A stretch of 47,998 nucleotides of DNA from positions 1 to 47,998 of the forward strand of contig JAKSYS010000495.1 of assembly GCA_022925895.1 (NCBI GenBank), given 5' to 3'. How positions within the stretch are numbered: position 1 is the first letter of the stretch; every line of letters starts with the position of its first letter. Below are positions 4,760-47,042 of this stretch, one piece after another. A model generated the notes under the pieces. That model did no database searches. It saw nothing but the letters and a program-made list of their open reading frames with translations, and was not told where the DNA came from. A program made the position numbers and the translations under genes. Origin of the DNA: Fragilaria crotonensis. Lineage: Eukaryota; Bacillariophyta; Fragilariophyceae; Fragilariales; Fragilariaceae.

Positions 4760-4864
4760 TTGAAGCACGAATAAAATCACCCCAATCTCTTCCTGGTATA
4801 CTGGTAGTTGCTGTACGTCGAATGATTACTGTTCAACAGCATCAAGCCGTACCTCCGGGTTTTA

Positions 4865-22970: not shown

Positions 22971-23592
22971 GATGATAATGTTGCACGATATGATTGCCAT
23001 CAGTGGATGGGCAATGGACGCAACAAAGGGTTTGGGGTACCTGGTACCATGTACCAGCATGTACTCGTACCTGGCACCACGTATCGTACATAATACCCGG
23101 TAGGCATGTACCAGTAGTCTCTGCGTACGTTTAGGTTGCCAATATTTCTGGTACTGTGCTGTACGGTACGGTCATAGGGGTTTCACCTTTCATACGGACC
23201 TACGATTGTACTGGAGTACATGTACCAGGTACTACATTGTTACTGTAATATAAAGGATTCAAATCGAGCGCATCGTCCGGGAGTCGGGTGTCACGGAGAA
23301 CCGAGACGACACCTGCACCGACTCTCCAGCATTCTCAAGACCTGAGACCTGACAAATAGGCAGGTTTTATCACAGGGCGACCGTTGCCAATGACATGTTC
23401 CGAGCATATAGTACTTGTACTAAGTACCACATACCGCTATAAAATTGATCAATCGGTCAAACGATCGTGGTTTCCCGTCGTACCAGTAACTTGTACCAGT
23501 ACTCAAACCTCGTTGTTGCTGATTCACTGATTGCTGATGCACCTGAAAACGAGCGGGGAACATCTTCGACGCGTGTACTTGCTGCTCCAAAC
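22971..23592. promoter_or_regulatory. Shared divergent promoter region, nucleoporin / nicastrin
   Basis: About 620 bp between two divergent genes must hold both promoters. It is notably rich in GTAC-centred palindromes (GGTACC, AGTACT, GTACTGGTAC-like; especially 23,035-23,130 and 23,200-23,235, again near 23,405-23,510). No defined TATA box or factor site can be assigned. Confidence 0.45.
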
Positions 23593-25870
23593 ATGGTGCC
23601 CTTAGTAGCGTTCGTCAGGCTGCTTCAGGTGGTGTCGCTGCTTTTCCTTTCTAGCCCGGCGCGGGCATCATCCTCGCTCCTTTCCCAACCATTCACATCA
23701 TCCTTCCATAACCTTGCGCACGCTCCGTGCGTCTCTCTCTCGCGATGGTAAACAGGGATGTGGTACCTCGTCTCGCGAGACCCAAACAGGTGTTCTGCAA
23801 CTTTATCAAGGAGAGGGAAGTCTCGGGACTAACAAAATGGACGCCCCCTACGTGGCGTTGGTTCCTGAAGAGCTCCTAAGCAGGGACGCGATAGAAGATA
23901 TTCTGTCAAGCAACAAAAAGGAATTGCTCCAAGGCATTCTCGTCACTAACTCATCGAATGTGTCTGAGTTCTACAGTCCAGCACCTCGTTGTCCCAATGG
24001 GAAGAGAACGCCTTCGCAGTACCTCAATTATGGAAATTCCGCCTACGGTTGGAATCATTACGGTGATTCCCTCCTGCAACTCAATTTCAAGGGTGTTCCT
24101 CTCGCGTTGGTGCTGGATCGTGAGGTGTCAGACACGTTGGTCGCAGAATCCGGGAAGGATGTTGTAGCGGAGTTCAACTACTACATGGGGCCTATCAATG
24201 ATATCACCTCCCTCGGATGCTTGTCTTGGAAAGATGCTTCTGACAACCAATGGAGTCCCAAATGTTTGCCTCTGGGTGGGCAATCGGTGTGGAGTTACGT
24301 ACATGAGAATGCAGATACCAACAATCGGAAACTCCAGGATTCCAGCGCCAGTGGGGGTGTATTCTTCTTGACCGCCAGCATGGATGCCACATCTCTATTT
24401 CACGATGCGACGCCTGCGGCCAACGAAGCCGCCAGCAATATCCTGACCATTCTTATGGCCTCGAAGCTCCTTGGACAAGCGAAATTTACTCAAATCAACA
24501 AGATAGTCGTCGCCCTATTTCAAGGGGAATCTTACGGTTTCCTTGGCAGTCGGCGATTCCTGAAAGACATTACCTCATTCACCTGCAACTCCAACCCTGT
24601 GCCGGCTGTTGCCAAGAATCAGACCGCGGAACAAGCTTGTTTGGATCCACTTCGTCCGAGTTTAGAGTTTACCAAAGTTCTAGGAAGCTCTGGAACCATA
24701 ACTGGCATGCTGTCAGTCGATCAAGTTGGTGTCTTGACCAAGAGTCAAAATCTTTATGTACAATCTGACGGCTCCAACTTTGGAGGCTTTCTGAGTGCTG
24801 TCTTGCAAGGAGTTGCTGCCAATGGATACACAATAAGTCAAGTTGCAGTAGACGCTGACGATGACCATTTCAACGGAAACGATGTCACGATTCCGCCCAC
24901 TCCTTTGACAACACTCCTCTCCTTGACGAGCGGAGCAAAAGGTGGCGCCGTCTTGACAGGTTATTCTGAGACTTTTGCAGGAGAGTATGGATCCCACCGA
25001 GATTCGGTATGGTATCAAGATATTGACCTCGACGCCATTGCGACGGCAGCTACAGTTTTAGCGAGAGCGGCGGTTGCTGCAGCATCGGATGACGGAAGTT
25101 TGGATTCGGATGTGGCCACCGAGTACGCTCTTCAAGTTATTCCAGATGCACTTTCAGCTCAAGATGCGGATTTGTTGGCACTAGCTGAGTGCCTTTATAA
25201 GGACGGCAACTGTCCACTCCTGCTACAATACGCAGATGTCGAAGCCGCAACAGAAACGGGCAAGACTGGGCTCCACATTGTTGTAGGCACTCCGTTGGGA
25301 ACCCCCCCAAACTATTATACATCTGTTTTCGGTGGCGGTCAAGGGCAGCCCTTCGTGTCTGTTAACAAGAATATTTACGGATCCTACGTCGGCGACGAGT
25401 ACGGCCAACACGACTCTGATGCATTCGCGGTCCAGGCGTCATTGCTGGAACACGCCGTTCGAGGCCTCCTAAATGACTACTTGGGACGGCCTGCCTCCGC
25501 AAGCCTGAAATCTTGCAAGAAAACATCTGATTGCGGCAAGGTCGACTACTGTCCTAATCAGGAGGCTATCTGCACTGGTGGCCATAACTGCGTCTGCCGT
25601 CAAGCGAATTTGCATTTGGCCCTTGATGAAGCGCTCACGGCTGCACCCGGCAATTACACTAGTCACTTTTTGATATCTTCCAGCGATGAAGGCGTCAGTG
25701 CTCTTTATACGGAACCCTTTTGGGATGGTGGGGTGGGCATAAAGGTTTATCGAAACTCGAATACAACGGGATCGGTCGCCGCCATGGTGGTTGGTTCTTT
25801 AGTTGTTGTGGTGTCCGTGGTTGCCACGTTGCTCGTGAAGCGAACATTGGTAAAGGAAAAGCTGTATTAG
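23593..25870 (+). CDS. Nicastrin, gamma-secretase subunit (one N-terminal frameshift)
   Basis: Type I membrane glycoprotein that recruits substrates to the presenilin protease in the secretory pathway. Start ATG 23,593 opens a signal peptide (FVRLLQVVSLLFLSSPARA), followed by LAHAPCVSLSR, the usual Cys-rich start of the ectodomain. Frame then shifts by one base in the CT-repeat near 23,735-23,745 and resumes as GKQGCGTSSRETQTGVLQLY, again nicastrin-like. The large aminopeptidase-like (M28) lobe follows, with SMDATSLFHDATPAANEAAS and FQGESYGFLGSRRFLKDI, equivalent to the DYIGS region. Cys clusters lie near the end (CKKTSDCGKVDYC), then one transmembrane segment (MVVGSLVVVVSVVATLLV) with a short basic tail, VKEKLY. 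About 750 residues, normal for the family. The shift sits in a simple repeat, so error is as likely as mutation. Confidence 0.9.
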
Positions 25871-26024
25871 ATGTACGAGCACCATTGCATTGAATGAGAA
25901 ATCCCCCTTCAACTACGTCTAGTATCGGCTTCTAAAAACGAAAGCAAATGCTAAGTCTTCCTACAACTCTAAACGATTTTCTAGCGTAGTGAAGTTGGCA
26001 CGTGGCTTGTATAAAGCTGTTTTA

Positions 26025-28058
26025 TTAAGCATCTTGAGCGTTGGCCTTGCTTCTCCTTGGTTTGGTCACCTTGGCGTTCAGTTTCTTCTTGTTCTTATCC
26101 TGCCTTGATGGCGGAATCGAAACATGGTCGCTTCGAGGCTTCTTCTTCGTTGGTACCAGTTCAAGATCTTTAGATTTCGTAACTTCCTTTCTTTTTGAGA
26201 TTCCCTTACTGTCGTCCGGCGCTTGCTCCTTTTTCTTGGGGGTGTCAATTTCTTCCTCGTCACCATCACCCTCTTCGTTTACCTCAGGTTGTTCAATTGT
26301 GTCTTCAGGTTTTCTGTCACTCAGCTTCTGAATCTTGGCGACAAAAAAGCCGTCCATGTTATGAACATGGGGGTAGAATCTTCTTGTCAGTACAAGACTT
26401 GGATGAAATCGCTTCTGTTGATAGCGAACAAAGCCAGGCTTTCCAAAGTCCAGGCCTGCGGGAATGAGTTTGATGTCCCTCTTTTGAAGCGCGTAGTTCA
26501 CCACTTCTTCGTTTTCGTAAACACTGACACTGCAAGTGGAGTAAACCATGACCCCGCCAGACTTTTTGCTCTTGTGATTTAGGGCGTCAATGGCAGCCAA
26601 GAGGAGCTCCTTTTGCAAGTGAGCGCACTTTTGGACATCGAGAATGGTTCGCTGCACCTTGACACTGGGGTCACGACTGATGACTCCGAGTCCAGAACAT
26701 GGAGCATCCAAGAGAATTCTGTCAAACGAGTTTGGAAACTTGATGCCCAGCTTGCGACCGTCATGAATACAGGTGATCACATTCTTGACACCCAAACGAT
26801 GCATGTTCGCCACGGTTGCCTTTTGGCGCTCTGCCTTGAGATCATTTGCCATAATGACTCCTTTGTTGCGCATAAGCTGGGCAATGTAGGAAGTTTTGCC
26901 TCCAGGAGCAGCAGACATGTCCATGACTTTTTCGTTGGGCTGCGGAGCGAGAGCCAATACGGGGCACATACTAGCAGCGCTCTGCAACATGTAGTGACCA
27001 GACAAATATTCGGGAGTCGCACCGATTGGAACGGGCGACTCAACAATCTTGAGGCCCACTTTGGACCAACTGGCGAGCGGATCCAATGACACTCCTCGCT
27101 TCATCAGGGCAGAAGCAAGATCCTTGCGTCGAGCCTTGAGCGTATTGGTACGCACAACCAAAGGTCTAGGGCGATCGGATGCGTCCACGAACTCGAGCGT
27201 TTCGGATGGGCCAAACATGGACATGAAGTATTCCATCAGCTCTGGCAAGTATCCATACAACTCTGACATGTCTACCACAAACTGGTCAGTATACTCACTT
27301 CGGGCACGACCGGGCTCACGACGAATTTTGAAGTCAGCCAGCACTTCGAGAATTGATTCGATACGCGATCGAATTTCTGAGGGAGGAACAACTCTGTTAT
27401 GCTCAGACTCAAGTTCTTCTGCTGTGGGAAGGTGAAAGATGGCGGTTTCTTGTGCAATGGTGCGACGCATTTCTTCGTCTGCCTCTTCTTGTTCAATTTT
27501 CATTTCCTCATCTACTAATCTCGATTGACGCTCAACTTCGAGCTCCTCTTCATCCATCTCGTCAACTTCAATCTCATCTTCATTTCCTTCCTCGTCATCT
27601 TCGTCGGAATCCATTAGTTGCGATTTCTTGGGTTTCAACCACCTTACGTTGTCATCTGAAAAGAAAGGCTGATTTATCGGCTGCTCCTTGGGGTCATCCT
27701 CTTCATCATCATCATCATCATTATCATCACCATTATCATCACCAATGTCATCACCATTGTCATCATCATTGTCATCATCATTGTCATCATCATTATCATC
27801 TACGAGACTTTCTTCGTCATCCATGGAATCGCTATCGGAATTGTCGTCGTTTTCTTCCTCCTCCTCAGGTTGAGGCTCCTCCTTCTTCTTGTGCACAACC
27901 TTCTTCGTAGGTTCGCGGCCTCGTGAGCCCGACTTTTTTGGAGGCTGACTCTTGGCAGCTTTGCGGCTGTCCACCTTCTTTGGGGGTTGGTTCTTGACAG
28001 CTTTGCGGCTATCTGCCTTCTTTGCAGGCTGCTTCTGGGACGGTGTACGGCGCCCCAT
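26025..28058 (-). CDS. NOP2: Nop2/NSUN1-type 25S/28S rRNA cytosine-C5 methyltransferase
   Basis: Nucleolar SAM-dependent enzyme that methylates a cytosine of the large-subunit rRNA and is needed for 60S assembly. The start MGRRTPSQ (28,058) is preferred over an ATG nine codons upstream because basic MGRR starts suit nucleolar proteins. Order: Lys-rich repeats (QPPKKVDSRKAAKS), a very acidic region with a DDDN/GDDN tract encoded by an ATC-type microsatellite (27,700-27,820), the PUA-like/NOL1 N-domain (RTNTLKARRKDLASALMKRG), then the catalytic core: MSAAPGGKTSYIAQLM (SAM loop), DAPCSGLGVISRDPS (motif IV) and YSTCSVSVYENEEVV (motif VI, catalytic Cys). The basic tail is a nucleolar-type signal. 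Intact. Convergent with nicastrin, 154 bp apart. Confidence 0.93.
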   Translation of the reverse strand: MGRRTPSQKQPAKKADSRKAVKNQPPKKVDSRKAAKSQPPKKSGSRGREPTKKVVHKKKEEPQPEEEEENDDNSDSDSMDDEESLVDDNDDDNDDDNDDDNGDDIGDDNGDDNDDDDDEEDDPKEQPINQPFFSDDNVRWLKPKKSQLMDSDEDDEEGNEDEIEVDEMDEEELEVERQSRLVDEEMKIEQEEADEEMRRTIAQETAIFHLPTAEELESEHNRVVPPSEIRSRIESILEVLADFKIRREPGRARSEYTDQFVVDMSELYGYLPELMEYFMSMFGPSETLEFVDASDRPRPLVVRTNTLKARRKDLASALMKRGVSLDPLASWSKVGLKIVESPVPIGATPEYLSGHYMLQSAASMCPVLALAPQPNEKVMDMSAAPGGKTSYIAQLMRNKGVIMANDLKAERQKATVANMHRLGVKNVITCIHDGRKLGIKFPNSFDRILLDAPCSGLGVISRDPSVKVQRTILDVQKCAHLQKELLLAAIDALNHKSKKSGGVMVYSTCSVSVYENEEVVNYALQKRDIKLIPAGLDFGKPGFVRYQQKRFHPSLVLTRRFYPHVHNMDGFFVAKIQKLSDRKPEDTIEQPEVNEEGDGDEEEIDTPKKKEQAPDDSKGISKRKEVTKSKDLELVPTKKKPRSDHVSIPPSRQDKNKKKLNAKVTKPRRSKANAQDA

Positions 28059-28459
28059 GGTGATGACAACGTTGGTTCGAAACAATGGGGCCTGAAGGTT
28101 TCAAATTTTAATTGCTGGCTCACGTAGCAAGGCGCATAACCTGTACAGGACCACCATTCATCAGACATCAGACTGCAGACCCTACTGGTACAAGAGTACA
28201 AGAGTACAGTACTACTAGTAGTACTTGTACCTGGTATGATATTCGTATACTGGATGCACTTGTTGGTTGGTGTAAAAGTGCTTGTACCACTGTTGTGAGT
28301 CGCACAGTACATGTACGCCTAGAGTATGTACTAACTCGTCTGCCACCAGTACTGTAGTACGGCGGACTGCAATGACGGGTACTGGATACTGGATACTACT
28401 ACTGCTAGCAGCATATGTTCATGTATCTGTTCGTATTACGCATATGCTACTACTACTAC
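28059..28459. promoter_or_regulatory. NOP2 upstream region, GTAC-rich
   Basis: No gene supported. Dense in GTAC, AGTACT and TACTAC motifs from about 28,190 to 28,459, ending in TACTACTAC where the first copy of the recombinase element starts. Presumably contains the NOP2 promoter. Confidence 0.4.
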
Positions 28460-29497
28460 ATAACCCGGTGAAATATAAGAGATATAGACCTTTTACGAGC
28501 TCGGAGGTCACATTGTATAAGAAAATCTTATATTTTCAAGTAGTCCGAGAAGTACTCCGCGCGCCTTCTAGTGGTGATTCTGCGCACAATTCTTCAGTCA
28601 CACCAGTCATGAGAGGTATTCTTGGAAAAGTATAAGACTTCGAGCTTTTTGTCTTATACTTTCCCAGTGGGAGTAGGTACTTGTACTCGTGAACTCGTGA
28701 CAGCAATCGGTGCACACTACGACGCGTCGACGTATTTGGTACTGTAGTACTTAACTACCGGTGCAACTTGGAGATTGGGGCACAGTACCAGAACTGAACT
28801 GAAATTGACGGCAGTTTGTTGCAGTACTGCAGTATCTACTACTGTAGTAGTTCCAGCCCTAATTCCTACGGCATGTTGGGAATACGACCTTCATTCGCAA
28901 CTTTTACTACAACAAACAATACCAGGATGATGCGTAGATGCTTTATTCACTTGTGACTTCTGACGGTGAATGTTATTGTGACGCTGCGACTGCATACAAT
29001 GTGAAGTCAAACATCTTCGCCATCATGATGCTTCATCATACTGGAGTATCCATTATCATATTCCCTCTGAAAGGTCAGTGATTTCAATGTGCCTTGTACA
29101 TCATGTGCTTGTCGCTAACTTGTGTTCCCAACATCAAAAAATGACACAGTACTAGTATGACATGTTTGATCAAATCCAAATGCACTCGAAGCTTGTCGCC
29201 TGCTAAGAAGAAATTCTTGTCTGCAAAAGGCACACACCGGACCCAGTGAAAAGTACTACTTGGGAGTGTGCATGAAGGGTGAGGAGGGCATACCTCCTGT
29301 CTGTTTGTTCTTGGGGTGGTGATTTTGTGATGTCGGAAAAATTCAACATTCTCGCCAAAGGTAGACATCATCTTTTGCGCAACGTTACCGTTGCAAGTAG
29401 AAAGGGGACAAACCGAGACATCGTTATAAATCATTTTTGACATTCTTTCTTGGAGCTTCTGTTAAGGCCTTGTCTTGGATCCTGTTCTCGGTAAGTA

Positions 29498-29833
29498 CTA
29501 CGCACATGTGAGGCCAAGTTGATCAGCGACAATTTCTAAATCAAGTCTAAATTCACAGCAACGTTGCCAATTCCAGATGTTGCATCCTGTATCCACCATT
29601 CCACAATGATTTTTGAGAGCTGATGGCACACCTGTTGTGGCAACATGCCGAATGCTTCTACTAGTAAATACTCCGGGTATTTCAGCATCACTAGTTGCAA
29701 AATGCTGGTGAGGACAAATATTCCCGATGTCATTCAAAAGGCGCACTCGACAGTGTATAGTACTCAGAGTACTACTAGTAAGGAATTGATTCAGGCCTGT
29801 GAAGCATCGATTCCTGAAAATCAGAGTGTCCAA
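29498..29833 (-). other. Weak open frame downstream of the recombinase, present in both copies
   Basis: 111 codons (IWNWQRCCEFRLDLEIVADQ, HVATTGVPSALKNHCGMVDT), with a near-identical counterpart at 33,686-34,024 in copy 2. A further frame lies at 29,084-29,443 (partial counterpart 33,267-33,545; CTLPSSTFHWVRCVPFADKN). The copies are too alike for their similarity to show selection. Could be a second element gene, an exon, or non-coding. No family recognised. Confidence 0.25.
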
Positions 29834-29863
29834 CGTGGCTGGTTTGTCATGTGTAGATGTGTA

Positions 29864-32444
29864 CTAGTGGAGGTTTTGCATTACTTCCTGTTCAACAGTG
29901 AATTCCTTACCGAGGACCATGGATCTGTGTTCATGGTTATTGTGTTGTATGACTGCAGCATGACGCTTTTCGGGTCGTGTAATCGGAGTTCGTTTTCTCT
30001 TTGCTCTTTGTGTTCTGGGTTGGTTGAATCGTGTCGCTTGTGGAAGATTGTCCTTGTCAACTTGCTTTCCATGCTTGATGATCTCCGATGCCCTTGCATG
30101 TTTTGACCAAGTGGATATTTTCCATGTCTGTGGCTTCACTTTTGGACCTTTGTCGAACACATAGCTTACTCGCTTTGTCTTCAGATACTCAAATGCCACA
30201 CTATAAAGCTCCAAAAATTGGGTGGCAGTGATAGTACTTGGATTCCTTGGAATATCGAGCCCTGGAGTTTGACACATCATCTGCAGTATTGGCTCCCAAT
30301 GAAGGTGGAATACTGCTCTCACGGATTTTGGAAGCATTTTTGGGTCGAGCAGTCGGAATGGCCTTATTGGAGCAGCTTTTGACACAGAATCCTTTGTCTC
30401 GATTTCATAGCCAGGCATACCCTTCAACCACAGACAAAAAGCACCTCTCAAATCAACCTGGGTTGGGAACTCAAAAGGTTTTGGTACCTGCCAAAAGTGA
30501 CCATTGTGAGAATACACTCGATAAATGGCACCACCGCCATGATTGCTTATTTGCTCTTCTTCCCCTGCAAAGTCAACTCCTCCATCAGTGTTGTTGCCGA
30601 TTGAAATGTCATCACCTGATGTGTTGTTGGTCTGTCCATATCTCAACAAATGGGTGCGGATGCTATCAATTTTTGAATGCAACTTTGACATACGACAATC
30701 TAGCAGGTGTTCCATGTGCTTGCGGAAGTCATCAAGTATAAAATTCATTCGATCAGCTGTCATTTGGCCATTTGCAGACATTTTTGCCTCGTATGCTTCT
30801 GCCACAGACTCTTTGACCTGCATTGTTATATCTCGAACTTCTTCCAAAACTGTAGTACATATCTCCAACACCTTTTCACCATCACCGCACTTTGGATATG
30901 AGGTGGAATTCCTGTTGCAGTTTTCATTGACTCAGTTGGCTCTGTCGTGACAAGAGCCTTTAAATTAAGCAGCAAATCCTTGTCGTGGAGCAGTGGGATG
31001 AGGCCAAATGGATGCGGAACCTTCCGTATCCAATCATACAGAAATTCAGAGTGATGAATGACAGCAGGAAGGAGTCGAAGAAGTAATCCAGTGGGATTGA
31101 TTGAATTTCCTGACCAGCGTTGAAGGATTGGCCCATACATAAGGTGCATTGCCTCATTAATTTGTGCATTTCCCATTGGATCGATAGGAATGAAATGAGG
31201 CGGAAGGGATGCAAAGTTTTCATTAAGGGATCCAAGCCGGCCAAGATACGCCCAAGGTAAGTGTCGGCAGGTTCTGCTAAGTACAAATACAAATCAAATA
31301 CTCGACCAAGCGACCACTCACCACGCCCAGCTGTTGCTGTAGCAGGTGGTGGACAGGTTGTACCTGACTGAGAATAAGTACCGGAGCCTTTGCGAATTGA
31401 ATGCGTGTTTGCATGTTTAGGTCGAATGTAGGCCGACAGCTCCGGTGTATTTGCATCGAGAATATCATTGAGCTGGGAGCAGAACCGCTGTGATGCTGCT
31501 CCCTCTAGAGTGTCTCGAGTCAAAAAGAGATATTCACTGTCCCCAAACCGTGCAGTGTCCAGAGCAAACCAAACCCCGAGTGCTAGGTACAGATCCAAAA
31601 TGGCATCAAATGGATTGGAGAATAAATGCTTGTCATGTGCACTATCCCCGGTTTGATCAGTCTTGTGTTTGTCATACCTCCCCACAATCGAATCCTCCTC
31701 AAGGCGAAAGTTATGCAGACCAAGTGTCCCAATACTGATTGAACGCGCCATAAATGACCACTGCAACAACCCAAAAGTCCAAACAAAAGGATTTTTCAAT
31801 TCAAGTGCCCAGGTCATCCACATACGGAAAAGAGAGAAGGAAACAGGGTCTGCCTCGCATTCATCAATCCTCCCATCCTTCTTTGCAGTTGCAGCTTCTT
31901 TTCGATACGACATCATCCACTTTTCCATCTCCGTGTAGTAAGATGTGGGGAGCTGCTCTTTTGAACATTCTGCCCCCCACAGAACTGCATCATTATATTT
32001 TCGGATTTGTTCAAAGCTGCTTGTATTCCCGTTGTCCTTTATCTTCTTTGTGGTTAGGAAGGCCTTAAATATTTGTACGTTCAAACCCTCATAGCGCAAA
32101 TCGTGCGTGTTTTTATGATGAAACCCACCCAGGTCGGCATCGCCAAGCTTCCTGATACCTCCTAGTTCACAGTACTGTGGATATGCCTTCTTCATAAATT
32201 CATAAATATGCTTGATTCGATTCCGATAATCCTTCTTTGTTTTAGCCTGTCGGTCATGTCCTTCCGTTTCAAGCATTCCCATGCTGTGGAGTGTTTTGAT
32301 CGGGATACTTTCCCCAATTATAGGGACAACATCATTGGTGTCACGCTGATGTGGGCGTATGCGCCCATGTGATTGAGATGATGAATGTCGTGGCATGCTT
32401 GCGCTGATGGTCAGATAAGTTTTGTCACATGTGAAGTGCAACAC
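29864..32444 (-). pseudogene. Tyrosine recombinase (YR), copy 1, frameshifted
   Basis: Site-specific recombinase that would excise and insert the element through a covalent 3'-phosphotyrosyl intermediate. From the first ATG (32,444; an ATG at 32,396 is an alternative) there is an N-terminal helical core-binding domain (KTKKDYRNRIKHIYEFMKKA) and a catalytic domain. Candidate catalytic residues: Arg234 (FMARSISIG), His348/Arg351 (THSIRKGSGTY), Trp377 (GEWSLGR) and nucleophile Tyr386 (FDLYLYL), with the normal spacings Arg-Tyr 35 and Trp-Tyr 9. The frame is lost near 31,225 (one G fewer than copy 2) and near 30,870 (one T fewer). A long C-terminal region (QVKESVAEAYEAKMSANGQM, later KTKRVSYVFDKGPKVKPQTW) with a basic tail (QRAKRKRTP) follows and may bind DNA. 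Both shifts are intact in copy 2, so the ancestor encoded one ~860-residue protein. Confidence 0.82.
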
Positions 32445-32652
32445 AATTTTACCAATTTACGCACCTTGGGCTTGTGGTCGCATACAGTACCGTGTAGTAG
32501 GTGTCAGACATAAATTACTACTGGAGTACATAGCAGTACTGTTGGCTGGGACTAGTGGAGGCGTAGGACTCAAAAGGCCTGAGAAAAGCATGATGCTGGA
32601 CAGACCACAAAAACTGTATAAGCTTTCTTATACTTTTTGTCGAGGCTCCTAC

Positions 32653-35600
32653 ATAACCCGGTGAAATATAAGAGATATAGACCTTTTACGAGCTCGGAGG
32701 TCACATTGTATAAGAAAATCTTATATTTTCAAGTAGTCCGAGAAGTACTCCGCGCGCCTTCTAGTGGTGATTCTGCGCACAATTCTTCAGTCACACCAGT
32801 CATGAGAGGTATTCTTGGAAAAGTATAAGACTTCGAGCTTTTTGTCTTATACTTTCCCAGTGGGAGTAGTACTTGTACTCGTGAACTCGTGACAGCAATC
32901 GGTGCTCACTACGACGCGTCGACGTATGGAATACTGTAAGTGCCAACACACGGTGGCGATTGGGGCACAGTACCAGAACTGAACTGAAATTGACGGCAGT
33001 TTGTTGCAGTAATGCAGTATACGACTACTGTAGTAATTCCAGCCCTAATTCCTACGGCATGTTGGGAATACGACCTTCATCCGCAACTTACAACAACAAA
33101 CAATACCAGGATGTTGCGTAGATCGTTTATTCACGTGTTACTTCTGACAGTGAATTTATTGTGAAGCTGCGACTGCATACACTTTGAAGTCAAACATGTT
33201 TGCAATCATGATGCTTCATCATACTGGAGTATCCATGATCATATTCCCTCTGAAAGGTCAGTGACTTCAATGTGCCTTGTACCTCATTTGCTTGTCGCTA
33301 ACTTGTGTTCCCAACATCAAAAATGACACACTACTAGTATGACATGTTTGATCAAATCCAAATGCACTCGAAGCTTGTCGCCTGCTAAGAAGAAATTCTT
33401 GTCTGCTGCAAGGCACACCCCGGACCCAGTGAAAAGTACTTCTTGGGAGTGTGCATGAAGGGTGAGGAGGGCATCCCTCCTTGTCTGTTTGTTCTTGGGG
33501 TGGTGATTTTGTGTGATGTCGGAAAAAATTCAACATTCTCGCCAAAGGTAGACATCATCTTTTACCGCAACGTTACCGTTGCAAGTAGAAAGGGGGACAA
33601 AACGAGACATCGTTATAAATCATTTTGACATTCTTTCTTGGAGCTTCTGTTAAGGCCTTGTCTTGGATCCTGTTCTCGGTAAGTACTACGCACATTTGAG
33701 GCCAAGTTGATCAGCGACAATTTCTAAATCAAGTCTAAATTCACAGCAACGTTGCCAATTCCAGATGTTGCATCCTGTATCCACCATTCCACAATGATTT
33801 TTGAGAGCTGATGGCACACCTGTTGTGGCAACATGCCGAATGCTTCTACTAGTAAATACTCTGGGTATTTCTGTATCACTACTTGCAAATTGCTGGCGAG
33901 CACAAATATTCCAGATGTCATTCAAAAGGTGCACTAGACAGCAGTGTATAGTACTCAGAGTACTACTACTAAGGAATTGATGCAGGCCTATGAAGCATCG
34001 ATTCCTGAAAATCAGAGGGTCCAACGTGGTTTGTCATGTGTAGATGTGTAGTGGAGGTTTTGCATTACTTCCTGTTCAACAGTGAATTCTGACCGAGGAC
34101 CATGGATCTGTTCATGGTTATTGTGTTGTATGACTGCAGCATGACGCTTTTCGGTCGTGAAATCGGAGTTCGTTTTCTTTGCTCTTTGTGTTCTGGGTTG
34201 GTTGAATCGTGTCGCTTGTGGAAGATTGTCCTTGTCGACTTGCTTTCCATGCTTGATGATCTCCGATGCCCTTGCATGTTTTGACCAAGTGGATATTTTC
34301 CATGTCTGTGGCTTCACTTTTGGACCTTTGTCGAACACATAGCTTACTCGCTTTGTCTTCAGATACTCAAATGCCACACTATAAAGCTCCAAAATTGGGT
34401 GGCAGTGATAGTACTTGGATTCCTTGGAATATCGAGCCCTGGAGTTTGACACATCATCTGCAGTATTGGCTCCCAATGAAGGTGAATACTGCTCTAACGG
34501 ATTTTGGAAGCATTTTGGGTCGAGCAGTCGGAATGGCCTTATTGGAGCAGCTTTTGACACAGAATCCTTTGTCTCGATTTCATAGCCAGGCATACCCTTC
34601 AACCACAGACGAAAAGCACCTCTCAAATCAACCTGGGTTGGGAACTCGAAAGGTTTTGGTACCTGCCAAAAGTGACCATTGTGAGAATACACTCGATAAA
34701 TGGCACCACCGCCATGATTGCTTATTTGCTCTTCTTCCCCTGCAAAGTCAACTCCTCCATCAGTGTTGTTGCCGATTGAAATGTCATCACCTGATGTGTT
34801 GTTGGTCTGTCCATATCTCAACAAATGGGTGCGGATGCTATCAATTTTTGAATGCAACTTTGACATACGACAATCTAGCAGGTGTTCCATGTGCTTGCGG
34901 AAGTCATCAAGTATAAAATTCATTCGATCAGCTGTCATTTGGCCATTTGCGGACATTTTTGCCTCGTATGCTTCTGCCACAGACTCTTTGACCTGCATTG
35001 TTATATCTCGAACTTCTTCCAAAACTGTTGTACATATCTCCAGCACCTTTTTCACCATCACCGCACTTTGGATATGAGGTGGAATTCCTGTTGCAGTTTT
35101 CATTGACTCAGTTGGCTCTGTCGTGACAAGAGCCTTTAAATTAAGCAGCAAATCCTTATCATGGAGTAGTGGGATGAGGCCAAATGGATGCCCCGGAACC
35201 TTCCGTATCCAATCATACAGAAATTCAGAGTGATGAATGACAGCGGGAAGGAGTCGAAGAAGTAATCCAGTGGGATTGATTGAATTTCCTGACCAGCGTT
35301 GAAGGATTGGCCCATACATAGGTGCATTGCCTCATTAATTTGTGCATTTCCCATTGGATCGATAGGAATGAAATGAGGCGGAAGGGATGCAAAGTTTTCA
35401 TTAAGGGGATCCAAGCCGGCCAAGATACGCCCAAGGTAAGTGTCGGCAGGTTCTGCTAAGTACAAATACAAATCAAATACTCGACCAAGCGACCACTCAC
35501 CACGCCCAGCTGTTGCTGTAGCAGGTGGTGGACAGGTTGTACCTGACTGAGAATAAGTACCGGAGCCTTTGCGAATTGAATGCGTGTTTGCATGTTTAGG

Positions 35601-36824
35601 TCGAATGTAGGCCGACAGCTCCGGTGTATTTGCATCGAGAATATCATTGAGCTGGGAGCAGAACCGCTGTGATGCTGCTCCCTCTAGAGTGTCTCGAGTC
35701 AAAAAGAGATATTCACTGTCCCCAAACCGTGCAGTGTCCAGAGCAAACCAAACCCCGAGTGCTAGGTAAAGATCCAAAATGGCATCAAAAGGATTGGAGA
35801 ATAAATGCTTGTCGTGTGCACTGTCCCCGGTTTGATCAGTCTTGTGTTTGTCATACCTCCCCACAATCGAATCCTCCTCAAGGCGAAAGTTATGCAGACC
35901 AAGTGTCCCAATACTGATTGAACGCGCCATAAATGACCACTGCAACAATCCAAAAGTCCAAACAAAAGGATTTTTCAATTCAAGTGCCCAGGTCATCCAC
36001 ATTCGAAAAGAAGGAAACAGGGTCTGCCTCGCATTCATCAATCCTCCCATCCTTCTTTGCAGTTGCAGCTTCTTTCGATACGACATCATCCACTTTTCCA
36101 TCTCCGTGTAGTAAGATGTGGGAGCTGCTCTTTTGAACATTCAGCCCCCACAGAACCGCATCATTATATTTTCTGATTTGTTCAAAGCTGCTTGTATTCC
36201 CGTTGTCCTTTATCTTCTTTGTGGTTAGGAAGGCCTTAAATATTTGTACGTTCAAACCCTCATAGCGCAAATCGTGCGTGTTTTTATGATGAAACCCACC
36301 CAGGTCGGCATCGCCAAGCTTCCTGATACCTCCTAGTTCACAGTACTGTGGATATGCCTTCTTCATAAATTCATAAATATGCTTGATTCGATTCCGATAA
36401 TCCTTCTTTGTTTTAGCCTGTCGGTCATGTCCTTCCGTTTCAAGCATTCCCATGCTGTGGAGTGTTTTGATCGGGATACTTTCCCCAATTATAGGGACAA
36501 CATCATTGGTGTCACGCTGATGTGGGCGTATGCGCCCATGTGATTGAGATGATGAATGTCGTGGCATGCTTGCACTGATGGTCAGATAAGTTTTGTCACA
36601 TGTGAAGTGCAACACAATTTTACCAATTTACGCACCTTGGGCTTGTGGTCGCATACGAGTACCGTGTAGTAGGTGTCAGACATAAATTACTACTGGAGTA
36701 CATAGCAGTACTGTTGGCTGGGACTAGTGGAGGCGTAGGACTCAAAAGGCCTGAGAAAAGCATGATGCTGGACAGACCACAAAAACTGTATAAGCTTTCT
36801 TATACTTTTTGTCGAGGCTCCTAC
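32653..36824 (-). mobile_element. Crypton-like tyrosine-recombinase element, copy 2 of a tandem dimer
   Basis: 4172-bp unit, near-identical to copy 1 and in the same orientation, ending CTAC at 36,821-36,824 before unrelated DNA. Hairpins recur at 32,823-32,852 and 36,788-36,805. Differences from copy 1 are mostly single-base indels and scattered substitutions, plus a more diverged patch around 32,925-33,020. Confidence 0.8.
34012..36615 (-). pseudogene. Tyrosine recombinase (YR), copy 2, frameshifted
   Basis: Same protein as copy 1, with different lesions. The frame is broken near 36,130 and 36,010 (around CSKEQLPTSYYTEM and DPVSF), near 35,320 (one A fewer than copy 1, after NAQINEAMHL) and near 34,510 (LLDPK). 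The catalytic signature (MARS, HSIRK, GEWSLG, FDLYLYL) is complete, and the joint from catalytic to C-terminal part (LDPLNENFASLPPHFIPIDP) is read through where copy 1 is broken. It lacks the TAG at which copy 1 stops and reads about 15 codons further (NLHYTSTHDKPRWTL). Inactive as it stands. Confidence 0.82.
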
Positions 36825-36943: not shown

Positions 36944-37606
36944 GTTCATACCAGGGCTGCGCAACAATATATTGTATTACAATATATTGCAATATATTGT
37001 TACCAATACAATATATTGTAGTAGTAAAAGTATTGCAATATATTGTATTGTCGTTCTGAAGTATTGCAATATATTGTATTGTTGTTCTGAAGTATTGCAG
37101 TAGTAGTATATTGTATTGTCCATCTGGAGGATTGCAATATATTGTATTGTCGTTTTGAATTATTGCAATATATATTGTATTGTCATATTCAAGTATTGCA
37201 GTATATTGTACAATATGTTGTACGGTGGCATGGTACAAGTACTATGTACCACTCTAGTATGCACTGTACGTGGATGCATCCGTACAATTGGTGTTTCGGT
37301 CCGGGCTGCGCAACAATGTTTACACTGTATTGCAATATATTGTTACCAATACAATATATTGTAGCCTTAAAAGTATTGCAATATATTGTATTGTCGTTCT
37401 GAAGTATTGCAATATATTGTATTGCTCTATTAAAGTATTGCAATGTATTGTATTGTCGATCTGAAATATTGCAATATATTGTATTGCTGAATTAAAGTAT
37501 TGCAATATATTGTATTGTCAATTTGAAGTATTGCAATATATTGTATTGCATATTCAAGATTCAACAATACAATAACAATACTATTGTGCGCAGCCCTGGT
37601 TCATAC
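36944..37606. mobile_element. Non-autonomous hAT-type element filled with 31-bp tandem units
   Basis: Perfect 8-bp target duplication GTTCATAC (36,944-36,951 and 37,599-37,606) flanks a 647-bp element (36,952-37,598) whose ends are inverted repeats CAGGGCTGCGCA (left) and TGCGCAGCCCTG (right). CAGGG ends plus an 8-bp duplication are the hAT signature. The interior has no coding capacity. It is two blocks of ~31-bp tandem units with core TTGCAATATATTGTATTG, separated by about 100 bp of GTAC-rich sequence (37,205-37,300). A second copy of the left terminus (GGGCTGCGCAACAATG) starts the second block at 37,303, so the element may be a nested or dimeric product. Confidence 0.88.
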
Positions 37607-37782
37607 ACTCGCCCGCCTCCATGAACTACCGGTAGTACAAGTACAAGTACTTAACTCCAATGTCAATAGCATCTCGCACGGGTTTGCAATTTCTTTTGAA
37701 AGAGCTAATAATTACTCATGATTGCTACCAAGGAGTTCTGACCAACGACTACCTTCACATTGTCTCGAGACCCAGACCTTTA
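37607..37782. other. Intergenic, 3' side of the FTSJ gene
   Basis: About 175 bp between the hAT element and the FTSJ stop codon. Nothing further recognised. Confidence 0.4.
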
Positions 37783-38592
37783 TCACGACCTCTTCGTCTT
37801 TTCCTTTGCGAGTTCATAGGGTGGTTGTATAGGAGGCTGAACGGGAGTATTGTCAAAATCTGAGTCAACTGGATAACTCTTGTTCGCATCCATGTCTACT
37901 CCTGTCTTTGAAAACCCTGACAAGTCACCACACGCGATGAACGGTACTACCGATGGATCCAAGCTCCCGATGTCAGCTATCGTACCCAAAGGCAATTTGC
38001 AGTTCCCTATAAAGTCTTCACACACCACAAACGCTTCACTCGAAGAATTTCTGGACGCCGACGGTTTGGCAACGCTGACACGGCGAAAAACGAGTCGCAG
38101 TTGGGCATACAATAAACCTACATCCTTGTGTCGGAAGATTTTCGCCACAAAGGTGCCTCCATCGCGCAGTAGATGTGTCGCCAAGGCCAGGGCACTGAGC
38201 AATAGCTGTCCCTGTAAATAGTCGTCCACATCGTGTAGACCTGTGACATCAGGCGCACCATCACACACCACCAGGTCGGCCTGTTGATTGTCGAAGGCTC
38301 TCAGAATCGCATGAGCCGTGTCGACCGACGTGATGTCACCCTGCATGCAGAAGACGCCATCCAAGGGCGCCATGGGCTGTAAGTCAACGGCCACCAGTTT
38401 CTGAACATGTTCACTCAGGACTTGGGACCAGGATCCCGGAGCGGCGCACAAATCGACGGCTCGCTGAGTTCCTGCCAAAAATTTGAACTCGGAATCCAGT
38501 TGTAACAGTTTAAATGCTGACCGCGCTCGATACCCCATTTCTTTGGCGCGGCGATAAAACACATCGCGTTTGTCTCTCGATAATCGGCCCAT
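37783..38592 (-). CDS. Trm7/FTSJ1-type tRNA 2'-O-ribose methyltransferase
   Basis: 269 residues, intact. RrmJ/FtsJ-fold enzyme that would methylate the 2'-OH of anticodon-loop positions 32 and 34 in the cytosol. The start [20 protein letters not shown] matches the family's start exactly. The K-D-K-E catalytic tetrad is complete: Lys28 ([11 protein letters not shown]), Asp111 (CDGAPDVTG), Lys151 (FVAKIFR) and Glu186 ([10 protein letters not shown]). SAM loop: [14 protein letters not shown] (46-59). The C-terminal tail ([18 protein letters not shown]) resembles the partner-binding tail of Trm7. The Asp/Pro content and YRARSAFK motif favour Trm7 over the mitochondrial or nucleolar relatives. The upstream 1 kb contains a palindromic array. 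Confidence 0.92.
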
Positions 38593-39086
38593 TGTGATGC
38601 TTTCTGAAGAATTCTGGTAGACCTACGCCAAACGTTCGGTCTGGATTCTGGAGAGGGGATATGCCCGAATCAACCGACGGCGACAGCAGATCTGATCAAG
38701 ACCTAAATTGAGAGATGAAAACAAAACTGATGGCAGGTGCGAGGTGCGACAGGTGCGGAATTGCGATAAAAGTTTACTCCTGAGTCACCAAGTTCGACCT
38801 CTGAGGAGTACTCTTGTGGTTCAAACTTGCATACTCCAGAACGTCTTCGTTCTGTTTTCGCCCGACACCCTCAGCTGCCATTTATTTTCAACTTCGTGAA
38901 CGTAGTCAGAGAAATAATCAGGGGTCTTCGTGCAGCGAACGAAGAGCTGGAAGGTCCGGCCAAAGCACGTTTTTGCCGTTAAGTTCCGGTAGCGAAGTCA
39001 TTTCCACGTGAGCCGACTTCAAAAAACATGTGCTGCGATATTTGTAGCTGGTGCAGTCTATGCAATCGAGCCGGTAAGGTTTTCTG
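38593..39086. promoter_or_regulatory. FTSJ upstream region
   Basis: About 490 bp with no supported gene. Holds the promoter of the FTSJ gene (minus strand). Short plus-strand open frames (38,708-38,899; 38,814-39,011) show no motif. Confidence 0.4.
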
Positions 39087-39434
39087 ATGCGAAGTGGAAA
39101 TCCACTTCGGCTAAGTGAAACTCCACTTCCCCGAAGTGAAATTTCACTTCCCCTAAGTGAAATTCCACTTCACCGAAGTGGAATTCCACTTAGGGGAAGT
39201 GGAATTCCACTGACCCGAAGTGAAATGCAATTTTCCCGAAATGACTTAGTACTGAATTGTGTAGGCGACACGTGTGTCTATCGCGTTGTGAGGAAGTGGA
39301 ATTCCACTTCGGGTAAGTGAAAATCCACTTCGGTGAAGTGGAATTTCACTTCGGGTAAGTGGAATTTCACTTCGGGTAAGTGGAATTTCACTTAGGGGAA
39401 GTGGAATTTCATTTAGGGGAAGTGGAATTTCACT
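39087..39434. repeat. 21-bp palindromic-unit array with central spacer
   Basis: Two blocks (39,087-39,240 and 39,293-39,434) made of 21-bp units, each holding an inverted pair of half-sites (core ACTTACCCGAAGTGAAATT; variants such as GAAGTGGAATTCCACTTC are fully palindromic). The blocks are largely inverted relative to each other around a ~50-bp unique spacer (about 39,241-39,292), so the whole can fold into one long hairpin. No flanking target duplication was found (only CTGAT at both sides). Confidence 0.85.
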
Positions 39435-39675
39435 GATTAGGATCCACATGATAAACGCGCCGGCCTTGCTTTTTATCAGTTGACAATGACATAACGTGGA
39501 ACCGAGACAATTACTATGAGGTGTCACGTGTTCTCGGTTTTTCCTCGATTCGGACGGTGCGGCCGGACCTTCCTGCACTTTATCACGTCCTGACGCTCCG
39601 GACTTCATTCATACAATTGGCAATATTGTTCGGTAACACTCTCGGGCAAGGGTTCTGAGATCATTATTTCAAAGA
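39435..39675. promoter_or_regulatory. Upstream region of the SET gene
   Basis: About 240 bp between the palindromic array and the SET-domain gene; no motif assigned. Confidence 0.35.
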
Positions 39676-40365
39676 ATGTCGACATATTTATCGGACTCGG
39701 ACCAGAACGCCTTGAGCGGAAGAAATGCCCTTCATTTTCGAGCCGAACCAGACGTTTCCGTGGCCTCCAAAACCGACAAGACAACAGAAACGATAACCGA
39801 TGAAACACCTATCGAAGGACATCGCGCTGAAAAACCCATTCAAATAACGTCCAATATGTGGCCCCGCAAGGGACAGGCAAAGAAATGAGAAAAGGCGCCT
39901 ATCGGTCGTCAATACACGGTGTCGAATGAGACAGCTGGACGAATCACACCTTCTCGCCGGCCAAACAGGCCTCTTTGCGGCGACATGCTTCGTCCAATGT
40001 GATATAGTTGGTGAATATTGTGGTGAGGTGGTTCCATCGATGCATGGTCGCGAATACAAGGCTGTCCTAGAAGAGAATGCGACCTTTCCCCTTGGAGTTG
40101 ATTCGCAACGATATGGTAACGAATGCAGAGCCATCAATCACTACGAAAACATCGCTGCTCTTCCAAATGTTGTCATGAAGACTTGTTACGTGGATCAGCT
40201 TCCGAGGCTTATGATTGTCTGCAAACGAGACATTGCCATCGGGAAGAGTTCCTTCTTGACTATGGAGATGCTTACGTCAATGCGTTCCTGCAAGGTAACC
40301 AAGGAGACCTGATAGGGTCTTCGACTCGATTTCTTGGTCTGAGATGGCAGGTAGTAGTACCATAG
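39676..40365 (+). CDS. SET-domain protein (lysine methyltransferase-like), frameshifted
   Basis: SAM-dependent protein lysine methyltransferase of unknown substrate. A short N-terminal region (39,676-39,888; SDSDQNALSGRNALHFRAEP) leads in a different frame to the SET domain: RQLDESHLLAGQTGLFAATC, then VQCDIVGEYCGEVV, YGNECRAINHYENI (the NxxR/INH cofactor motif), LPNVVMKTC, LPRLMIVCKRDIA, and in a third frame EEFLLDYGDAYVNAF (the catalytic pseudoknot with the DY tyrosine). Frame changes near 39,850-39,890 and near 40,243. A GT donor at CAAG|GTAACC (about 40,293) may mark a real exon end, so the terminal codons are uncertain. Lacks visible pre-SET or post-SET cysteines. Either broken or affected by assembly errors. 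Confidence 0.72.
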
Positions 40366-41072
40366 GGGACGAGTAATAGCAACGTCGTCCTCGTCTTCCA
40401 AACTTGTAAACCCTCGTGTAGATTTCGATCACGGATATGGAAAAGAAACGGGTATGGGAATTGAACTGAAAGGTCTGGTACATCACGGTTGTTTACGCGA
40501 TCCGAGACAGCTACATTTCACGATTGCACGGCCGTCCTGGAGTATTTGGTGTCCTTGGGGACGTAGTCTAGTTGTATATTCTGGTTGCAACGCTTCTATC
40601 GCTTTGATTGCTGGATCAGTAATACAAGTACTGTTTCATATGCAGGTTGGTTGAAGAGTGGAATTGGGAATCTCTGGTGAAAGGTGTTGAAATTTGAGAT
40701 GCCAGAAGTACCGACGTACAGACGCCTTCGTAGGGGTTTGTGAGGGTTCCAGTCATTCTTCTCACCAGCGGTCATTTTCATGACGGTCTCGTTTTTAACG
40801 GCATCCCGAGCATCGCCTGTCGGTCGGTGGTCGATGGGAGCTTCGAAGAGGTCGAAAAAGTCGAAGGCGCATCCGAATTTATACACTGGGTATGATACAC
40901 AAGAAGAAGTTACGGACAGCCAGACGTCAATTTCCTCGCGTTGAGTTAAACCCTTGTATACATATATGATAGGCATCCAAACCAGAGCACAACACAAAAA
41001 CGTCTCAGTCAGACTAATTCCAACAGCATTCCTCGAGATAGCTTTCACTTTTCAACCACTACTATTATAACT
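40366..41072. promoter_or_regulatory. Intergenic, promoter region of the UBE2G gene
   Basis: About 700 bp with no recognised gene. A 150-codon minus-strand frame (40,596-41,048) has no motif and overlaps the likely promoter, so it is not supported. A CATATATGATAG stretch near 40,960 is a weak TATA-like candidate. Confidence 0.4.
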
Positions 41073-41822
41073 ATGACTGAATATGGAGCCGAGTTGTTGC
41101 GACGTCAATTGGCCGGTAAGGAAGGAAACTTGAGAGAATTACAGACATTATTGGGTCTCGAAAAGAATAGTTCGAGCGTTGTTGATGCCCCGTTCCGAAA
41201 CGGCAGGAAATTTCGGCAGGACAGAGGTTGCGATGGTTTTCAAATTGGTGTGGTTTGATTCGGTCCGTATTGTTGAATGGACTCGCGTTTCCTTCACTTC
41301 CAACAGAATTCTACCCTGTCGGACGCCACTATTAAGCATTGTAACTCACCTCTGATCACCCCAGATCTTGCCAAAAATCCGATTGATTTGGTTAGCGTAG
41401 GATTGGAAGACGACAGCAGTGTCTATAATTGGGAGATTCTCATCATGGGACCAGACGGTACTCTTTATGAAGGAGGCTTCTTCAAAGCAAAGCTCTGCTT
41501 TCCATCCGACTTTCCGAACATGCCACCTACCATGACGTTTGTATCAGAAATGTGGCATCCGAATGTCTACGCTGACGGACGAGTCTGCATTTCCATTCTT
41601 CATCCACCGGGTGAAGATGAATTCAACTCGCAAGAGTCAGCAGATGAACGATGGAGGCCGATTCTGGGAGTAGAACAGATTCTCATTTCGGTCATTTCGA
41701 TGCTTTCAGATCCGAACGATGAAAGTCCAGCCAACCTGGATGCAGCAGTTATGTGGAGGAATGACCGAGAAGCTTTCAAGAAGAAGGTTCGGCAGGTTGT
41801 TCGTAGGTCTCAAGAAGAATGA
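41073..41822 (+). CDS. UBE2G1/Ubc7-type ubiquitin-conjugating enzyme E2
   Basis: Carries ubiquitin as a thioester for K48-chain synthesis, in relatives for ER-associated degradation. Two exons: 41,073-41,115 and 41,365-41,822, joined across a GT-AG intron (41,116-41,364) inside a codon to give RRQLADLAKNPIDLVSVGL. The spliced product is 166 residues, as expected. UBC fold: NWEILIMGPDGTLYEGGFFK, FPNMPPTMTFVSEMWHPNV (HPN motif at 79-81), catalytic Cys89 in DGRVCISILHPPGED, then the acidic insertion EDEFNSQESADERW that marks the UBE2G/UBE2R group. C-terminal helices VRQVVRRSQEE match UBE2G1. Reading exon 2 from the internal ATG at 41,277 would give a false N-terminus. Intact. Confidence 0.93.
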
Positions 41823-42291
41823 AGAATGCTAATGCACGCCTAGCAGTGCTCATAGTAGGAAGTAGAAATCTTGGAAAGCCGCTCGTTATCGATGGTTAGT
41901 GCTCTTCAGGTTCCAACCTAGGTGTTCGTCATTTTATGGCGCAGTTCGTCTGTTACAATTACTTTTGCTCCTCACTACCGCTATCTTAGTGAGCGCTGTC
42001 TATCATGTGGGGAACGGACTCCAGATGATTAATGCAGTGAGGATGGTCCAACCTTCTAGTTTTGAGCCCAATCGTGAACATTGACCTTCTCGCATTGGAG
42101 CCCAATTGACATGCGTGATGGAAATAGGCGAAGACCCTTTGTCGGCATTGCTATAAGTGTGGTGCAACCATATGCGCTGAACGATAAAGCAAACCAGCGC
42201 CAGAGCTTTCGAGTCAAATTTGTCAGATAACTTCTAGTAGGCGAGAAACTCAGAACAATATTATCTGATGTAGTTTGACTTTCATGAAAGG
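41823..42291. other. Intergenic, small hydrophobic open frame
   Basis: About 470 bp between the UBE2G gene and the ATPase. A 61-codon plus-strand frame (41,899-42,084) has a hydrophobic N-terminal stretch (LLQLLLLLTTAILVSAV) like a signal peptide, but nothing else supports it as a gene. Confidence 0.3.
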
Positions 42292-45200: not shown

Positions 45201-45752
45201 GCGCGGACGTCGCCTTCAGACTTAGTGATATCGCCCGTCGTGCCAGAGATGAAGGTTTTTCTCGCGTAAACGAAGCATCAGTCATCAGGTCATCAGGATT
45301 CGAGGCGGCGTCGCCAGTCTCCGGCATGCGGCTCAATTTGCGAGAGAGAGCCTCAATTTCAGGGTCCTCTTCCGAAAGAAATGATTCTTGAATCTTGGCA
45401 AGCTCTCCCCCTTCCTTCTCGGCCATCAGATCCGACAACTTAGTAAATGCTTGCGAAAAGGCGCAGTAGGGCTCTGGAGAGTTGATCGAATTTCCTTCGA
45501 CGTAGACGGGAGAAACTTTCTTTCGAAGAAACGGCAGAGGGCTGTTTTTCCAGTTCCAGTTGATCCGTGCACGAGAACAACTTGGGTGGAAAGAGCAAGC
45601 CCTTGGTCGCTGGACACTGAATTGTAGATACTCACAAGCTGCTCCATCTCATGATGACGCCCATACAGGGTTTTTAGCATGGAGAAATCTGGTTCCAGAT
45701 TCATCCCCGCCGAAGACGAGGAGTTATCGCCCAAAAACTGCAGTCGCTTCAT
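42292..45752 (-). pseudogene. AAA/STAND-type ATPase with TPR-like tail, multiply frameshifted
   Basis: Relic of a large (~1100-residue) predicted ATPase of the type fused to kinases or cyclases in bacteria, fungi and protists. N-terminus LKTLYGRHHEMEQLVSIYNS, Walker A GSTGTGKTALCRFFER, Walker B-like VVLCLRGLQWADDPSL, sensor region LIIIGCYRDDEV, helical bundle LRALPETAQNALRVGACLGA and WAHDKVQQAAYELLPDL, then TPR-like helices (LFLAAEHLNRAVGLI to RAVELYSYWGAAAKV). Frame changes occur near 45,515, 44,815, 44,720, 44,610, 44,575, 44,160 and 43,445, and there is an in-frame TGA at 42,844-42,846 with the same frame continuing on both sides. The stop argues for real decay. No kinase, cyclase or receiver domain remains attached. 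Signalling role in the ancestor is inference. Confidence 0.78.
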
Positions 45753-46861: not shown

Positions 46862-47042
46862 AAGAGCCAGCATTGTCAAAGAAATGACAACACTCATGAT
46901 TTGAATAAATAGGGAATTCAGGACAACGAAAAATGAGTGTGGTTGCAGCAAGAGCCAGCGTTGTCAAAGAAATGACAACACTCATGATTTGAATAAATAG
47001 GAATTCAGGACAACACAATCCAAAAATGAGTGTGGTTGCAGC
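46862..47042. repeat. 88-bp tandem direct duplication
   Basis: AGAGCCAGC(A/G)TTGTCAAAG... through ATGAGTGTGGTTGCAGC is present twice in a row (46,862-46,949 and 46,950-47,042). The second copy has a small insertion (CACAATCC) and one base missing. Each unit has an inner GTTGTCA/TGACAAC inverted pair. Confidence 0.9.

Follow-up and report, generated by a model that had tools for sequence, protein, structure and literature searches.

According to the parts of the description by Kojima and Jurka (2011, PMC3212892) that were covered, CryptonS elements occur in oomycetes and in the diatom Phaeodactylum and contain one tyrosine recombinase (YR) gene, whose product has a long C-terminal region and no GCR1_C domain. 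The same source gives Crypton transposition as unstudied as of 2011; circular intermediates were proposed from analogy with prokaryotic elements. Here we describe two units of a CryptonS-like element lying head to tail on a contig of Fragilaria crotonensis (JAKSYS010000495.1, here C443; other contigs are likewise given as C numbers), all 47,998 bp of which make up the window; the assembly comprises 62.1 Mb in 881 contigs. On a 150-kb contig of this assembly a match to the RuBisCO large-subunit gene (rbcL), with what reads as rbcS next to it, points to an alga of the red lineage, probably a diatom. The units resemble CryptonS in being a DNA element of a stramenopile-type host, with one YR gene carrying the R...HxxR...Y set, a long C-terminal region, no GCR1_C and a short terminal direct repeat, but the published CryptonS repeats are 5-6 bp long and mostly TATGG (PMC3212892), whereas the repeat found here is 3 bp, TAC. 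Because the terminal repeat is TAC, and because the published 5-6 bp repeats were taken as a tendency, the element is named CryptonS-like and not CryptonS. The original prediction of a Crypton-like element stands as a resemblance in described features, the likeness being one of description, with no Crypton sequences in the collections searched.

Two other described systems are close to parts of what was found. CryptonI-1N1_RPro is a non-autonomous Crypton of Rhodnius whose ends are 98% like those of the autonomous element (PMC3212892, in the parts covered); the present genome also holds shorter relatives that share both ends with the autonomous element, but here the ends are 77-89% alike over most of the shared length, and one short copy is in tandem (C79). 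In bacteria, elements with a common integrase and attachment site, such as SXT/R391 and ICESt1, stack in unstable, recombining arrays (PMC3218068, in the parts covered). The stacking and the recombination between units are alike, but those elements are bacterial and conjugative, while the present one is eukaryotic with a 3-bp core. In the portions of PMC3212892 that were covered the word "tandem" is absent apart from the reference list, and head-to-tail Crypton arrays are not described in the parts of the Crypton literature covered. What we report is an ordinary kind of transposon in an unusual and telling arrangement, and the interest lies in the arrangement, not in the element.

The dimer, its core and its empty partner

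Unit 1 (U1; 28460..32652, forward strand, 4193 bp) and unit 2 (U2; 32653..36824, same orientation, 4172 bp) abut exactly, each with ATAACCCGGTG...GAGGCTCCTAC ends. On the forward strand ATAACCCGGTG occurs at window positions 28460 and 32653 only, and GAGGCTCCTAC at 32642 and 36814 only; the prediction of two ~4.2-kb units in one orientation with zero bp between them is exact by sequence match, in its ends as in its coordinates. Aligned with each other, the units differ by 84 substitutions and 55 gap columns in 4210 (BLAST identity 96.8%). Since this repeat extends over 4.2 kb at 96.8% and the same ends are found at other loci, it is not due to chance, and on these comparisons the units are copies of one element in the 62-Mb assembly. 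Read from the boundaries, and at the left also from an empty partner contig, the TAC core stands at the left genomic boundary (28457..28459), once at the junction common to U1 and U2 (32650..32652, TAC|ATAACCC), and at the right boundary (36822..36824), where it is followed by genomic GTA.

CTAC had been proposed as the core, and it is indeed present before U1, at the U1/U2 junction and at the end of U2, but the identity across loci is TAC. CTAC was rejected as core, being found at only 2 of 12 left boundaries (C443 and C317), and its presence at the left flank of the window means little alone because that flank is a CTACTACTAC repeat. Left flanks ended in TAC in 10 of the 12 tabulated (8 GTAC, 2 CTAC) and right flanks began with GTA in 9 of 12, against a background in the rest of the window of 1.2% (TAC) and 1.4% (GTA); P was about 6e-18 and 5e-15 in a simple binomial with sites taken as independent, with the 12 left and 12 right boundaries entered by hand. 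The common right boundary of C79 and C81 was counted once. Excluded from the tally were eroded ends (both of C786 and the left one of the C872 copy), left ends that coincide with a contig start (C79, C262), the C317 right boundary, which was not located, the C219 right boundary, whose flank is that of C443, and the two loci with a different core, C471 and C569. Most targets read TAC|GTA, and because the element has C before and A after TAC, where the target mostly has G before and G after, the identity amounts to three bases. In the orientation of the gene the common bases are CAG in C471, followed by one mismatch and then more likeness, AG in C569, and TAC in the others. An inverted repeat around the core was perfect over 11 bp in C471 (0 of 500 shuffles) and not beyond chance in C443, C79, C262 and C569 (P 0.12-0.71); as a general core feature such repeats were dropped, C471 standing alone among the five loci.

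Both flanks of the dimer recur on contig C200, the left one matching 4185-4810 and 6085-6255 and the right one 6419-7764. This contig reads ...CGCATATACTACTACTAC directly into GTGGGTAC...GTAGCTATG, the flanks meeting at CTAC|GT and the element being absent, and the two contigs are collinear at 96-99% over window positions 23389-28272, 37606-38949 and 39573-47998. Because they are linked on C200 without the element, the left and right flanks of the window belong together. The genes on either side of the dimer are read as RsmB/F-type and FtsJ. Relative to C200 the insertion shows no evident target duplication, that is, a short terminal repeat without further duplication, as in Cryptons of any kind, although the exact base count at the empty site is uncertain because local divergence is 3% in 37607-38940. 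A longer target duplication would have spoken against the original prediction; C200 is empty at the site and none longer was seen. The two contigs also differ beside the site, in that ~1.27 kb of C200 (4811-6084) is not present between window positions 28272 and 28284, and C200 is without an equivalent of window 38950-39572.

A second difference in unit number was found between C79, with at least two units of a shorter relative, and C81, with one. Their right flanks differ at 2 of 2839 bases, with 7 gaps, and the C81 unit differs from the outer C79 unit at 7 of 1974 positions (0.35%) and from the inner one at 34 of 2359 (1.44%). One gain or loss of the inner C79 unit at the cores would explain the two contigs, no event being given a direction; the C79 array stands at a contig end, where sequence quality is uncertain.

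The putative tyrosine recombinase

The YR gene lies on the reverse strand and is broken in both units, at 29864..32444 in U1 (open reading frames, ORFs, 30960-32444 with 494 aa, 30826-31176, and 29864-30871 with 335 aa of the C-terminal region) and at 34012..36615 in U2 (ORFs 35980-36615, 35136-36140 and 34012-35319). Of the predicted ~860-residue YR with a long C-terminal region, the motifs and a conserved C-terminal region were recovered, but not an intact frame, each unit having at least three ORFs. The catalytic set is complete in both units, as had been claimed: the U1 catalytic region (31287..31751, reverse strand) contains MARSIS (31734-31751), HKTDQ (31653-31667), HSIRKG (31386-31403) and GEWSLGRVFDLY (31287-31322), and the U2 region (35466..35930, reverse strand) contains the same motifs at 35913-35930, 35832-35846, 35565-35582 and 35466-35501. 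In an alignment of 11 sequences including those of the window (35% mean column identity), R86, K113, H200, R203, W229 and Y238 are among 22 invariant columns. When this alignment (A3, cut to the window's columns) was compared by hhalign with a profile of 43 XerD-type sequences, the score was 27.6, which none of 100 column shuffles reached (highest 21.6); the reversed alignment scored 17.5. Counted along the hhalign alignment, R86, K113, H200 and R203 fall on XerD 148, 172, 244 and 247, which we take to be the catalytic residues of XerD. The spacing from W to Y in the YR is nine residues, presumably the same as that from H270 to Y279 in XerD. The resemblance to XerD-type recombinases consists of R, K, H and R in register and this spacing; the similarity is under the Pfam cut-off, and unlike them the present protein has an extra C-terminal region of at least ~335 residues. 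One U2 ORF gave a sub-threshold match to the Pfam family Phage_int_SAM_5 (E 0.086, 13.7 bits, cut-off 22.3). Resting on the invariant columns and hhalign, the YR assignment made in the original prediction appears sound, though no library names the protein.

The C-terminal region of ~335 residues is kept between families at 29-38% identity to the window (C250 97%), and sequence searches of Pfam, PHROGs and PDB with the C-terminal regions gave nothing above cut-off. Its AlphaFold model had a pLDDT of 52, and Foldseek against PDB returned 32 matches with E values of up to 10, not one of them reaching 0.001; from long predicted helices we suggest, with low confidence, a role in DNA binding or dimerisation. 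GCR1_C was not listed in the six C-terminal regions at E up to 10, a search in which HMMER filters drop most weak matches, and assignment to CryptonF was set aside. A Pfam scan of all 16 unit-overlapping ORFs of at least 100 aa gave no match above cut-off, no other protein was recognised in these ORFs, and the YR appears, as predicted, to be the main product of the element. A Helitron was rejected, HUH nuclease and helicase not being found in any of the 16. Relatives were found neither in viral contigs nor in prokaryote genomes nor in phages, the last searched with one relative as query. Away from the array loci the genome yields 62 Phage_integrase matches with E no higher than 1; all stay below the cut-off, and they perhaps represent another YR group.

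Across 775 codons of six copies, 33 variable codons were synonymous and 10 non-synonymous, and the variable positions comprised 31 third, 9 first and 3 second. As the variation is mainly synonymous, the YR protein was under purifying selection while the copies diverged. The stretch downstream of the gene (28460..29860) appears non-coding: no ORF in it reaches a Pfam cut-off, and in 12 of the 15 pairwise comparisons among the six copies its divergence outpaces that of third codon positions. On C230 a relative has a frame of 941 codons without a stop, 895 codons of which lie in the stretch read, while the frames in U1, U2, the C219 units and C250 are broken. Of the 12 coding indels between U1 and U2, 10 are changes in homopolymer runs, and the flanks of C443 and C219 differ by more gaps than substitutions (33 versus 16 in 3003), so some frameshifts may be read error. 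Part of the decay looks inherited, because U1 and the second C219 unit (C219b) have one frameshift in common; inherited decay and read error cannot be told apart fully from these sequences.

Arrays and relatives elsewhere in the genome

A probe for the YR gave at least 80 matches in the genome. Among the matches listed, like-oriented pairs ~3.3-4.5 kb apart occurred on C443, C219, C471, C569, C262 and C327; the tandem state was read on these six contigs, all of which proved to be DNA tandem repeats, and C79 was added to them. C219 carries a three-unit array with exact junctions and termini as in the window, its third unit (c) having a ~320-bp insert (local 11857-12177) with inverted GGTTTGGGTGGG/CCCACCCAAACC-rich parts. 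The arrays on C471 and C262 have periods of 3776 and 3377, each at 99.4% identity, and that on C569 has a period of 3472 with at least three units and about 105 bp, at 98% identity. A complete dimer with flanks GGTAC and GGAGTAC lies well inside the 483-kb contig C327, at a site different from that of C262. The C79 contig starts inside a unit. In total there are arrays on seven contigs, representing at least six sites and not seven because C443 and C219 have a common right flank, and they fall into about five sequence families (C443/C219, C79, C262/C327, C471 and C569). In line with the expectation that elements moved by tyrosine recombinases leave tandem arrays, there are six further array contigs at five or more further sites. 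The right flank of C219 differs from that of the window by 16 substitutions in 3003, and the left flank is unrelated; this contig would be a chimera or have arisen through exchange between arrays at two separate sites. That left flank is also found right at the beginning of C762, the stretch in question lying ~1.1 kb from the array on C219.

With a 281-base probe for the junction, 32 matches were obtained in the genome, the window's own included, and 15 stretches were read. C250 holds a single copy with the same termini as the window units; single copies with different termini would have spoken against the prediction. In all, six copies of 4.2 kb are alike in both ends and in content. Shorter relatives of ~2.0-2.4 kb have in common with them ~221 bp at one end (28460..28680 in U1, forward strand; 77-85%, one 48-base piece 92%) and 56-74 bp at the other (~73 bp at 32580..32652, forward strand; 86-89%). 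No ORF of more than 102 codons was found inside the two shorter elements checked. On our reading of BLAST-type comparison these relatives form two subfamilies, and from the common ends we infer that the YR may also move them. A copy on C63 has a ~29-bp direct repeat on both sides (around 2737-2766 and 5138-5167 of the stretch read), and C872:81903 and C872:98659 mark the ends of one short relative; the ~16.7 kb between them suggest a large insertion into the copy.

Proposed recombination at the core and alternative explanations

Considering the exact abutment of units, the common core, the empty partner, contigs with one as against at least two units, the several sequence families, the catalytic set and the purifying selection, all of which are observed, we regard it as likely that the dimer is that of a CryptonS-like element that left its site as a circle and was inserted again at TAC, in many cases at the junction of a resident copy, with later exchange between units. 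The element would be a CryptonS-like DNA transposon encoding one YR of ~860-900 residues with a conserved C-terminal region. The YR would pair the two TAC cores that bound the element and cut out a circle with the junction ...CTCCTAC|ATAACCC..., which would integrate through a single crossover at a TAC core. This core could belong to a new genomic target, for the most part TAC|GTA, or to the terminus of an element already in place. In the latter case a head-to-tail array would result, each of its junctions with a single TAC; the reverse reaction would shed single units, and exchange between units would make mosaics. From the sequence patterns we infer the circle, the excision, catalysis by the YR and, wherever one is implied, the direction of an event.

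The divergence of the units bears on this. U1 differs from U2 by 2.07%, U1 from the first C219 unit by 2.00% and U2 from C219b by 2.03%; the two units of the dimer are as far apart as these pairs across contigs, which suits separate arrivals. The units are mosaic, similarity being clustered in all five comparisons (runs tests, P 0.0005 or less, values that are rough as neighbouring sites are not independent), and these mosaics would fit exchange between units and likewise a mixed consensus in the assembly. A more tentative extension, which we consider possible but doubtful, is that the recombinase prefers its own junction (TAC|ATAAC) over genomic TACGTA, of which the genome is estimated to hold ~11,000 (from 7 in 39.6 kb). 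Array building would then be habitual in this clade: residents would act as landing pads, arrays would be reserves from which units are shed as circles while one stays, and segments would be exchanged as in bacterial integrative elements, with a core of just three bases.

Several observations weigh against recombination at the core as set out here. Both units are frameshifted, and with one frameshift common to U1 and C219b part of this decay looks real; the dimer is known from the assembly alone; three versions of the window's right flank exist; and C219 may be chimeric, joining that flank to an unrelated left one. Joined-flank searches found no empty partners for C250, C327 and C471, so that an empty partner is seen at one of the four sites searched. 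The left flank of C81 ends in CAC and that of C339 in CGC, the right flanks of C355 and C327 begin with GGA, and the right end of the C63 copy is altered. Units b and c of C219 are only 0.24% apart and those of C471 and C262 about 0.6%, for which replication or unequal exchange would suffice. As to the protein, the hhalign match is weak in absolute terms (cut A3, E 0.0037, probability 9%; uncut A3 and A1, E 0.0097 and 0.010, probability 4%), searches with the YR of Pfam, PHROGs and PDB gave no match above cut-off, and the AlphaFold model of the YR (mean pLDDT 35) was unusable and was not used.

The near-identical neighbours in C219 b/c (0.24%), C471 and C262 (both 99.4%) would also be produced if host processes, unequal crossing-over or replication slippage, had multiplied one insertion without the recombinase. 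We think this unlikely, in that unequal crossing-over presupposes two copies, breaks lying precisely at the core, and this in several sequence families, are not what non-homologous duplication should give, and the divergence between U1 and U2 is no smaller than that between them and some C219 units. The same neighbours suit multimeric or rolling-circle-replicated circles integrated at once, a scheme compatible with the same YR integration step in which the units of an array arrive together; with U1 and U2 2.1% and the C79 units 1.4% apart, and no replication protein recognised in the units' ORFs of at least 100 aa, its probability appears low. An equally low probability is given to an assembly artefact, either a false link, by way of the repeat, between two loci with one element each, or the doubling of a single unit. 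C219 has the look of a false link of this kind and the many indels suggest error-prone reads, but C200 connects the two flanks of the window with no element between them, arrays are present on six other contigs, that of C327 well inside 483 kb, and a difference of 2.1% between U1 and U2 is more than a doubled unit should show, though a false join inside the array is possible. Least probable by far, in our judgement, is a remnant of a YR retrotransposon of DIRS or Ngaro type, which was rejected: the genome has many other weak Phage_integrase matches, perhaps of that sort, but reverse transcriptase, RNase H and methyltransferase had no Pfam match in any of the 16 unit ORFs, and six 4.2-kb copies have both ends and content in common.

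The arrays on seven contigs, the empty partner and the one- versus two-unit contigs of a single genome are the traces to be expected of the predicted reaction. With its short core, defined ends and non-autonomous relatives the element offers a ready assay substrate, and a YR of eukaryotic origin whose core is 3 bp and whose targets are many could serve as a tool.

Two other features of the window lie outside the dimer. An insert of ~650 bp at 36951-37600 has inverted ends ACCAGGGCTGCGCA and a 31-bp minisatellite inside; it is apparently absent from C200 and would be a polymorphic element resembling a miniature inverted-repeat transposable element (MITE). At 16980-20412 there is a 1.6-kb direct duplication (98.4%) inside ORFs that resemble FG-repeat nucleoporin genes, a candidate name.

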